Shown: piece by piece, positions 23,056-26,331 of the stretch
How the letters are laid out: the number at the start of each line of letters is the position of its first letter
How positions within the stretch are numbered: position 1 is the stretch's first letter
Assembly (NCBI RefSeq): GCF_009936375.1
Contig: NZ_AP022332.1
Location: 744,001 to 808,000, forward strand
Reading direction: 5' to 3'
DNA: 64,000 nucleotides
Source of the DNA: Methylosinus sp. C49
GTDB lineage: Bacteria > Pseudomonadota > Alphaproteobacteria > Rhizobiales > Beijerinckiaceae
Made by a program: the position numbers and the translations under genes
The notes under the pieces: model-generated
Seen by the model: the letters and a program-made list of their open reading frames with translations, nothing else
What the model was told of the DNA's origin: nothing
The model's database searches: none

Positions 23056-23619
23056 TTTGGAAGAAACCTTTCTGTCGGTCGCAGCACTAGCAGATTCGCT
23101 CACGCTGAGACAGCGCGGCCGCCTGTCGGACGCGTGCGCCGCGGGGCGGACGCCTATTGCTTCGGCCGCTCGCCGAAGTCTGAGAAGCGTTACCTTACGA
23201 CCGCGTCTTTCGGGAAAAATTCCCGCGTTGAACGCGCCCTCTCTCGCCCTTTGCAATTCAAAAATGGTCGCGGATACAGAACACAAACAGACTGCATTCG
23301 CTGAGCGAGCATTTCGATGGCGACGCGAGGCCTCTATATATCGAAAAGCGCTTCCATGCGCCGATATTCGGGAAAAATGCCCAACCCTATCGCATAGGCG
23401 GTCATTCTTTCCCGACTGGCAAGCTTTCAGCGATCGTGCGGCGCCGATTCGCGTGATGTCACGTTCTCGTGCTCGAGAAAAAGTATGATATTTGCATATT
23501 GGTAACGCGCTATTCGATGAGTTTGCAGACGCTCGGGGCTCGCGCCCCCGGGGCGCATCGAGACGCGGCGGGTCCGCCGGCGAGACCGCAAAAAGCAGAT
23601 GAGGGCGACGAGACAGCCG
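23056..23619. other. AT-richer gene-free stretch upstream of the response regulator
   Basis: This 564-bp region lacks a convincing gene. Open frames in it have poor codon choice. It is lower in G+C than its flanks, especially 23200-23520. A short palindrome CGTGA-TG-TCACG lies at 23452-23463, and an AT-rich patch with TATGATATTTGCATATTGG lies around 23485. The promoters of the small secreted protein (minus) and the response regulator (plus) must be here. Confidence 0.4.
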
Positions 23620-24297
23620 ATGCGTGTGTTGATCGTCGAAGATCAGGCGGAGATCGCCGCTCTGCTGGCGGAAAAGCTCGCTCATTCCGGCTTTGTCGCG
23701 GATATCGTCGGCGCCATCGCCGAGGCCCGCGCGGCGATCGAGGCGGTCGAGTATGGCGTGATGCTGCTGGATCGGCGGTTGCCGGACGGCGATGGCGTCG
23801 CCATCATCCGCTCGGCGCGCGAGACTCGGCCGAACATTCGCGTGCTGATCGTTTCCGCAATGCGCGACATAGCCGAGATCGTCGACGGGCTCGACGCGGG
23901 GGCCGATGATTATCTCACCAAGCCTTTCGATCCTGCGGAGCTGACGGCGCGTATTCGCGCCATTCTGCGCCGGCCTGGACCACAGTCGGCGCCCTTCGCG
24001 CAGGTCGGAGCGCTCAGCTTCGAGCTCGACGAGCAGAGGGGCTTTATCAATGGCCGGCAGTTTCTGGCGCCCAAGCTGGAGCTCGTCCTGCTCGGCGCGC
24101 TGATGCGCCGCGCCGGTCTCGCGGTGACGCGCGCCGATCTTCTCGAGGAGATTTACGGCGCGCAGGGCGCCGATCAGGTCGACGCGCTGAAGATGCTGAT
24201 CCACCGCCTGCGTCAGCGCCTGAAAAACCATGGCGCGCGCGCCGATATCCATGCTGCGCGCGGCATAGGCTATCTCATTCGGAGCGCCGAGGAGTGA
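23620..24297 (+). CDS. OmpR-family response regulator
   Basis: This 225-residue regulator has a receiver domain (1-115) with the acidic pocket Glu7/Asp8, phospho-acceptor Asp51 (MLLDRRLPDG), Ser79 and Lys101 (YLTKPFDPAEL). The C-terminal winged-helix DNA-binding domain (about 130-223) carries the DALKMLIHRLRQRL recognition region. The start MRVLIVEDQ at 23620 is chosen for its fit to the receiver domain; an in-frame ATG seven codons upstream is possible. A sensor kinase gene follows 187 bp downstream. Confidence 0.93.
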   Translation: MRVLIVEDQAEIAALLAEKLAHSGFVADIVGAIAEARAAIEAVEYGVMLLDRRLPDGDGVAIIRSARETRPNIRVLIVSAMRDIAEIVDGLDAGADDYLTKPFDPAELTARIRAILRRPGPQSAPFAQVGALSFELDEQRGFINGRQFLAPKLELVLLGALMRRAGLAVTRADLLEEIYGAQGADQVDALKMLIHRLRQRLKNHGARADIHAARGIGYLIRSAEE

Positions 24298-24484
24298 AGA
24301 TCATGCGAGCGCCGTCGGCGCAGCTCGTCGTCTGCCGGTTCCTGCGCGCGCTCGCCCGTCTCGCGTCTTTGCATCGCGTCGCCAGTGTGTCGTGCGGCGA
24401 TCGGATGGATTGCCAAAATAAATCTTCTGGGCCAGTCTTGCGCCCGTCGCATTCGGTAATTGTTGGAAATTGCTTGTGCCGAGC

Positions 24485-25765
24485 ATGAGATTTTCTCGGG
24501 AGGCGGCAGGCGCGCCGCGACGAACGGGCGCAACTCACGCCGCCGGGCGTCGCGCCCTTTGGAATTTTATTGCTCGGCGCCGAGAGCTCGCCGTGGCGCT
24601 GGCGGCGCTGGCGGCGCTGGCGGCGCTGGCGGTCTTCGGCTCGGCGGAGCTGCTCGACCCGGGGTCCTTCGATCTCGCCGGGCGATTCACGGTTCTCGTC
24701 GGCGATTTCGCCGCCGTGCTGGCGGTGGCCGCCGCTGTAGCGGCGCTCGCCTTGCTCGGCCGTCTTCGCTTGCGCTCCGAGAGGGACGCGGGCGACGCTT
24801 GCGCGCGCGCGCTATGGGAGAATGGGCCGGTCGCCGCTTTCTGCTGGGAGGAGAACGGCGAGGTGACGGACGGCAATGACGCGTTTCTCCGCGTGACCGG
24901 CTATGCGCGCGCCGATCTCGCCGCCCGCCGCATCGATTGGCGGGTCGCCACCCGGCTCCCGTCGCCGGCCGAGACCGGCGTGGAAACGGATTTCGTGCGC
25001 AAGGACGGCGCGCGCGTGCGGCTGCGGCTCCGTTTTGTCGCGCTCGACTCGCAAGGCGCGCGCGGCGTGGCTTTCGCGCAGGAGGCGGCGGAAACGCAGG
25101 AGCTGCGCCGGCAGGCGGAGCGGCTGAGGGCGTTGGAGCTGAGGGCCGTCGGCTTCGCGCATGACATCAATCAGCCGCTGACCGCGGCTGCGGCCTATCT
25201 GCAGGCGGCGCGCCGTCACGCGACGCTCGGCCCCGCGCGATCGGAGGATCAACTCGCGGCCATGGACCGCGCCGGCGCGCAATTATATCGCGCCGCGCGG
25301 CTCGTCGGCGACTGGCGCGAGCTGTTCGTTCACGAATCGTGCGCGCCGACGGAGGTCTCGTTGCATGCGCTGATCGGCGAGACGTGGGAGACCCTGCGCC
25401 GCGATCTCGGCGAGACCGTCGACGCCGAGCTGCGTCTGCGCGCCGCGCGCGATCTCGTGATCGGCGATCGAACGCAGATCGAGCAGGAGTTGGCCGATCT
25501 CTTTCGCGTGGCCGCGCGGGCGGCGATCGCCTCGTCGCACCGATTGATCGTCGCCACATCGGAGCGCGGCGACCAGATCATCATCGATATCCACGACGCT
25601 CGCGTTGCGCCGCTCGCGCCGCGTCCCGATCCATGCGCCGTGGCGCCGGCGGGCTCGCGCGCGCTCGTCCAGGCCGATGGGGCGGGATTCGCGCTGTCGG
25701 ACGCGGATGTGGGCGGCTCCGCTTTTCGGCTCGCTCTGCCCCTGACCGACCGAGCCTGTGGATAA
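24485..25765 (+). CDS. PAS/histidine-kinase-like protein with degenerate ATPase domain
   Basis: This 426-residue protein has two membrane segments (about 35-55 and 68-92), the first encoded by a nine-base tandem repeat giving Ala-Leu-Ala. A PAS domain spans about 105-200 (GPVAAFCWEENGEVTDGNDA). A dimerisation/phosphoacceptor helix carries VGFAHDINQPLTAAAAYLQ (His226). The C-terminal part corresponds to the ATPase domain, but the N-box Asn is replaced (RVAARA at 341-346) and the G1 motif reads IHDARVAPL instead of D-x-G-x-G. It may be a phosphotransfer or phosphatase partner of the preceding regulator rather than a kinase. Confidence 0.8.
   Translation: MRFSREAAGAPRRTGATHAAGRRALWNFIARRRELAVALAALAALAALAVFGSAELLDPGSFDLAGRFTVLVGDFAAVLAVAAAVAALALLGRLRLRSERDAGDACARALWENGPVAAFCWEENGEVTDGNDAFLRVTGYARADLAARRIDWRVATRLPSPAETGVETDFVRKDGARVRLRLRFVALDSQGARGVAFAQEAAETQELRRQAERLRALELRAVGFAHDINQPLTAAAAYLQAARRHATLGPARSEDQLAAMDRAGAQLYRAARLVGDWRELFVHESCAPTEVSLHALIGETWETLRRDLGETVDAELRLRAARDLVIGDRTQIEQELADLFRVAARAAIASSHRLIVATSERGDQIIIDIHDARVAPLAPRPDPCAVAPAGSRALVQADGAGFALSDADVGGSAFRLALPLTDRACG
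24596..24631. repeat. nine-base tandem repeat inside the kinase-like gene
   Basis: The unit GCGCTGGCG is repeated about four times and encodes Ala-Leu-Ala repeats in the first membrane helix. Gain or loss of units would keep the frame and change helix length. Confidence 0.6.
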
Positions 25766-25799
25766 TGGGGGCAGCCCGCCGTAGCCGCTCGCCTGTCAT

Positions 25800-26143
25800 C
25801 GGGAAATGCTCATAATCTTTCGCCCTTCGAATTGAGGGGCGGATTATGGCTGCGCTGAAGCATTGTCTCGTCTCAGGGCAAGCCGCTGAAAGTAAAACTC
25901 ATCGTCTGCGTGCTTAGTATTAGTACCAAGCAATGCCACTAAAAGTAATCTCCCTATGGTATAAGTACTAGTGTTACCTACGAGACACAGGCGTCGTCTT
26001 TCTGCTCGCGATCTATATTAGGTTGTTTCCTTTACGATCGGAGCGCGCTAAAGAAGAAGAGTAGTCGATCAATAGTGGATCAATTATTCCCCGACGGAAT
26101 TTGCAACGGCGCAGGGGTTCGGCGTCTGCCGAACCCCTTTTTT
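25800..26143 (+). ncRNA. candidate structured non-coding RNA ending at a strong terminator
   Basis: No credible open frame exists between the kinase-like gene and the M16 pair, yet this stretch ends in an intrinsic terminator. Visible pairing includes CATAATC/GATTATG plus CGCCC/GGGCG (25811-25848), a long-range helix TGTCTCGT (25864-25871) with ACGAGACA (25980-25987), and inside it the hairpin TGCTT-A-GTA-TTAG-TAC-C-AAGCA (25911-25932). A direct repeat GATCAAT occurs at 26067 and 26078. The stretch is much richer in A+T than its flanks. The 5' end is not defined. It could instead be an untranslated tail of the kinase-like mRNA. Confidence 0.4.
26113..26143 (+). terminator. strong intrinsic terminator
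   Basis: An 11-bp stem AGGGGTTCGGC/GCCGAACCCCT with a GTCT loop is followed by six T. It is oriented for plus-strand transcription, 348 bp after the last plus-strand gene. Confidence 0.9.
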
Positions 26144-26157
26144 CATGACGATCCGTC

Positions 26158-26190
26158 GGGCGCCGCAGGTTGCGGCGCCCGTTTTCTTTT
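26158..26190 (+). terminator. second intrinsic terminator in tandem
   Basis: A 9-bp stem GGGCGCCGC/GCGGCGCCC with loop AGGTT is followed by GTTTTCTTTT. It lies 15 bp after the first terminator in the same orientation. Neither stem has a T-run on the minus strand, so these do not serve the minus-strand peptidase operon. Confidence 0.8.
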
Positions 26191-26331
26191 GCGGAATATC
26201 ATTGGGTCGCCTCGAGATGATCGCGCGCTGCGCGCTGCGAAGGTCGCCATGCGATCATATGTTTCTGGCGGCGCGATCCGATCATTGGACCGGATCGCGC
26301 TGTCGAATTTCGCCTTGCATTGAAGTTTGGA

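Follow-up and report, generated by a model that had tools for sequence, protein, structure and literature searches.

The gap between a kinase-like gene (24470-25765, + strand) and an M16 peptidase gene that converges on it (27720-26332, − strand) in Methylosinus sp. C49 probably holds a stand-alone small-RNA gene peculiar to the genus Methylosinus. Positions refer to the window, which is the whole stretch of 64,000 nucleotides that was analysed. The gene would comprise a regulated promoter, a mostly unstructured RNA of ~178 nt and an intrinsic terminator (terminator 1), with the RNA acting by base pairing in trans. The RNA is predicted at 25967-26144 on the + strand, starting at A25967 and ending in the U tail of terminator 1, based on the conservation profile and covariance models R1 and R2. 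Its counterpart in Methylosinus sporium 5 has predicted ends at ~6997 and ~7175 (+ strand) of NZ_PUIV01000002.1. As judged from comparative sequence analysis, this is a candidate new, genus-restricted small-RNA gene, ordinary in kind and with an unusually distinctive operator-like array.

Genomic context and conservation

An earlier note on this DNA had described 25766-26190 as gene-free and AT-rich and had placed a candidate RNA across it. No credible gene is found from the kinase stop codon (25765) to terminator 1, and positions 25901-26100 are 56.5% AT, the highest AT content of any 200 bp in the window, so both descriptions hold. The interval does contain a real feature, but it does not start at 25766, as the conserved unit covers ~25915-26145.

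Over all nine species carrying the element, conservation begins at ~25915-25950 and stops at terminator 1. Within this range 25951-26145 forms a sharp block, in contrast to the poor conservation of the kinase gene before it and of the gap after it. The four closest species share 88-100% identity with the window over 25951-26200, followed by a steep drop past 26200; in more distant species the block extends no further than terminator 1. The kinase gene is far less conserved than the element, its product being 72% identical in amino acids in the closest species. When compared with the fourfold sites of the M16 gene, the RNA body is the more conserved in five of seven comparisons (97/90, 93/86, 93/82, and 85/74% identity for RNA body/fourfold sites); in the remaining two it is at the same level or below. 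These exceptions are G009 and G007, the most distant comparisons, where constraint does not exceed that of GC-biased fourfold sites, the identity of which is presumably kept high by the GC bias.

This profile bears on whether the conserved sequence is a long 3' UTR of the kinase-like gene or an RNA processed from such a 3' UTR. The two lie adjacent on the same strand in eight of the nine species, as this explanation would have it. However, conservation is low from the kinase stop to ~25915 and does not increase until the operator region is reached, and in G007 a divergent SDR (short-chain dehydrogenase) gene stands upstream of the element with the kinase beyond it. The G007 arrangement makes a kinase 3' UTR unlikely, and overall this origin is considered quite improbable.

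The neighbouring genes have features of their own. The kinase-like protein gives weak HisKA and PAS matches without a HATPase_c domain, unlike its relative in G007 (L052:3810-6164), which has one; its sequence suggests a kinase that is degenerate and evolves fast. At 25757-25765 a DnaA-type box with a perfect match, TGTGGATAA, extends over the stop codon of this gene. It is the sole exact one in the 64 kb, and a similar sequence is present in most relatives. On the other side, just past the M16 stop, a near-perfect inverted repeat (GCGCGATCCG...CGGATCGCGC, 26270-26301) has no U tail on either strand and is possibly a 3' end signal of the M16 gene.

Distribution among genomes

A DNA search of 60 genomes located the element in nine of 10 Methylosinus genomes and convincingly in no other. 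It occupies the 3' side of the M16 gene in all nine carriers, while the tenth Methylosinus genome (2.8 Mb) has neither the element nor a strong M16 match. An exact-pattern scan of named genomes found matches in M. sporium DSM 17706, Methylosinus sp. Ce-a6, Methylosinus sp. Sm6, and a MAG. Covariance model R1 matched exactly nine of the 10 Methylosinus genomes, at 128-215 bits. Its weak matches in other genera were terminator-only alignments where inspected, and a terminator-free model, R2, was therefore built. R2 recovered the same nine genomes at 90-149 bits and reached no more than 17 bits outside them, the comparison covering 387 family genomes from other or unmatched genera together with the remaining class genomes sampled.

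The element was absent from the other genera sampled (397 family and 385 class genomes). At 25 M16 loci of sister genera, the adjoining stretch is different, is not AT-rich and gives no match. On the sampled genomes, the element is thus restricted to the genus Methylosinus. A search for a phage or plasmid source gave no match and such an origin was rejected.

Predicted promoter and palindrome array

The upstream edge of the conserved unit carries an array of operator-like sites. Palindrome 1, GTATTAGTAC, of the form GTA-N4-TAC, lies at 25917-25926. It keeps this place in six of nine species and is shifted 13-14 bp towards the start in three. Palindrome 2, GTATAAGTAC, lies at 25959-25968, overlapping the predicted start site; all nine species share its GTA and TAC arms unchanged, with a variable N4 centre between them. 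Between these is a middle inverted site at 25937-25947 (CAC-N5-GTA), which has related half sites in reversed order and reads [TC]AC-N5-GTA in seven species and TAC-N4-GTA in two. Its centre is ~21 bp, or two helical turns, from the centre of each flanking palindrome. In G004 and G009 the half sites alternate every 7 bp.

These sites are rare outside the element. GTA-N4-TAC occurs twice in the 64-kb window against 0.61 expected, with the copies 42 bp apart. The pattern GTATNAGTAC has two copies in the whole 4.7-Mb genome, both at 25917-25968, and exactly two copies in each of G000, G008, and G002, always at the element. Elsewhere in the genus there are six matches. Five fall in coding frames, three of these in a methanol-dehydrogenase-like gene, and the sixth, L126, is ambiguous. 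The sequence pattern points to putative protein-binding sites that would be private to the promoter of the element. A literature search for a GTA-N4-TAC operator found none. Control by the neighbouring OmpR-type response regulator (23599-24297) is disfavoured, as no homologue of it was found beside the element in six further Methylosinus species; the kinase-like gene is present there.

A predicted -10 box, TATGGT (consensus TATRGT), lies at 25955-25960 on the + strand, with the A and the final T invariant in all nine species (alignment A3, columns 10-15). The A of the invariant TAC, at 25967, is 6 nt beyond this box and is taken as the predicted +1. According to the M. sporium 5 transcript map, 6 nt is the commonest spacing from -10 box to +1 in that strain, and both the TAC and the 6-nt spacing of the element agree with the start-site preferences given there (PMC12403871). 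No conserved -35 box is found upstream of the predicted start, which would fit a promoter that depends on an activator or is otherwise regulated.

The conserved block could partly be a DNA regulatory region. Taken further, it might be mainly a DNA element, an operator or a nucleoprotein site for protein binding, with the terminators belonging to neighbouring transcripts. A palindrome array with helical phasing that is unique in the genome is what such an element would contain, and the weak structure of the RNA (see below) is in keeping with it. Against this, conservation continues unbroken for ~180 bp beyond the palindromes and ends at a terminator, and the GC skew has no switch at the site and hence gives no sign of a replication origin. 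A mainly DNA-level role is therefore rated as rather unlikely. A replication origin as such, an idea prompted by the DnaA-type box at 25757-25765 and the high AT content, was rejected on the GC skew without a switch and the lack of a DnaA box cluster.

Termination and RNA folding

Two tandem terminators on the same strand had been proposed from the sequence, and both are present, with stems at 26113-26138 and 26157-26181, each followed by a tail. Terminator 1 (26113-26144, + strand) has an 11-bp stem and a U6 tail running to ~26144. It is invariably present with its stem paired in all nine species, where U-A to C-G and U-A to U-G changes preserve the pairing. Terminator 2 (26157-26190, + strand) has an 11-bp stem, a variable loop and a U-rich tail. 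It is found in the six closer species and is missing in the three most distant, G004, G009, and G007. Terminator 2 is predicted to be a clade-specific backup stop ahead of the convergent M16 gene.

Beyond the terminators, the mutually consistent helices described in the earlier note did not survive comparison with controls. The whole 425 nt fold with a z-score of -5.2, and this signal is due to the terminators. Once the terminator was removed, only one of nine homologues folded better than its dinucleotide shuffles at p<0.05, and the consensus fold stood at the column-shuffle mean (z 0.0 for nine sequences, with further values of -0.6 and -0.2). No conserved helix outside the terminator rose above shuffled controls. 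In the helix at columns 44-48/71-75 of alignment A2, both partners differ at two pairs in G004 and G009, possibly through a single clade event, and one pair is changed in G005. Long-hairpin and pseudoknot folds were also rejected, as the alternative helices suit some species and are not above controls. With a folding signal that comes from the terminator only, the label 'structured RNA' is not supported and is to be dropped. What stands of the small-RNA proposal is the separate non-coding unit, for which synteny, the lack of a coding signal, the promoter and operator region, the terminator and the arrangement in G007 all argue; what falls is the conserved helices.

Coding potential

The sequence between the predicted promoter and the intrinsic terminator is conserved and apparently non-coding, as expected of a stand-alone small-RNA gene. 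No coding signal was seen in the substitution patterns and no long frame is kept across the homologues. A protein gene was rejected on these grounds, the frames being broken or without a coding pattern.

One short frame deserves separate consideration. A doubtful, near-leaderless ORF of 16 codons at 25971-26021 (+ strand) reads [GA]TG TTR CCN RCN ... TAG/TAA, and 4 nt lie between the predicted 5' end and its start codon. The transcript could thus be a tiny messenger for a 16-aa peptide, the rest being its 3' region, or might combine two functions in the manner of the Sinorhizobium peTrpL leader RNA. The start codon is kept in nine of nine species and the stop in eight, with no gaps, and the early codons differ at third positions (TTR, CCN, RCN). 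M. sporium is also reported to have leaderless transcripts (PMC12403871). Conversely, codons 5-9 differ at first and second positions with the third mostly constant, the substitution score carries no coding signature (z -0.5, p 0.70), the stop is lacking in G007, and there is no downstream operon on which attenuator control could act. A messenger of this kind is accordingly seen as unlikely. The comparison with rnTrpL/peTrpL of Sinorhizobium meliloti (PMC7298713) is apt in that it too is a terminated small RNA with a start codon at its extreme 5' end, whereas the element differs in having no operon downstream and an ORF without a coding signature.

A bolder combination is also conceivable, though speculative and with a low chance of being right. 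The element would be a dual-function RNA born within Methylosinus, joining the near-leaderless 16-aa peptide to a pairing region, with regulator sites (GTA-N4-TAC arrays in their exact form) at this one promoter only. If true, this would give a methanotroph a regulator-RNA circuit of its own.

Relation to known RNAs

The covariance search suggested in the earlier note reached no Rfam family: neither the window stretch nor eight homologues gave a match at gathering level. The note had also failed to recognise the element as 6S RNA, and rightly so. 6S RNA (RF00013), which is similar in length, was rejected as it has no match at the element and has its own gene elsewhere in the genome (G000:C1:3676396-3676551, 68 bits). 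Furthermore, the element ends in a terminator hairpin and has no long closing rod, unlike 6S RNA. The best sub-threshold E-value in Rfam was that of BjrC68 (RF02353), a small RNA of Bradyrhizobiaceae, at 18.5 bits against a cut-off of 39 and with the match confined to the terminator region (26086-26147).

The element could still be a divergent relative within a known small-RNA family, either housekeeping or alphaproteobacterial (6S, tmRNA, EcpR1, alpha-r45, BjrC68), and the weak BjrC68 match is what speaks for it. With that match limited to the terminator, 6S RNA encoded elsewhere and nothing at gathering level in either the window stretch or the eight homologues, this origin is already largely refuted and is regarded as very improbable. 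In general character the element resembles EcpR1 and alpha-r45, trans-acting intergenic small RNAs of alphaproteobacteria, being likewise intergenic with an intrinsic terminator, a predicted promoter of its own and a size in the 100-200 nt class. It differs from them in having no sequence match, a range of one genus, little structure past the terminator and a promoter palindrome array. The transcript map of M. sporium 5 lists 38 intergenic units and, in the available part of its text, EcpR1 and alpha-r45 alone are named among the intergenic RNAs (PMC12403871).

Proposed mechanism and significance

The preferred reading, a stand-alone small-RNA gene, suggests the following course of events. A dedicated regulator would bind the in-phase GTA-N4-TAC sites (25917-25968) around and over a promoter with only a -10 box, governing initiation near A25967. 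RNA polymerase would then yield an AT-rich, mostly unstructured RNA of ~178 nt ending at terminator 1, with terminator 2 backing up the stop before the convergent M16 gene in the closer species. The RNA may pair in trans with purine-rich ribosome-binding regions through the single-stranded pyrimidine tracts CUUUCU and GUUGUUUCCUUUA, and Hfq on the U tail may aid this pairing.

Base pairing in trans is the best guess for its action given the combination of a mostly unstructured body and invariant pyrimidine tracts. CUUUCU (25998-26003, + strand) is invariant in nine of nine species and is a candidate pairing (seed) region. The conserved, pyrimidine-rich AUUAGGUUGUUUCCUUUA (26017-26034, + strand; alignment A2) complements Shine-Dalgarno-like purine runs and would be a second candidate. 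An Hfq gene is present in the genome and the predicted RNA has a U-rich tail. A target search of the genus with the loop complement returned essentially the RNA itself, plus one site with two mismatches in G007, and yielded no target.

Small RNAs have hardly been studied in methane oxidisers, with the one map found naming two by family in the available part of its text (PMC12403871). Nothing in the analysis indicates that the RNA controls methane or metal metabolism; if it did, it would be relevant to strain engineering. With predicted ends, a conserved operator-like array and a narrow range, the candidate could illustrate how a new RNA regulator emerges, together with its control, within one genus.
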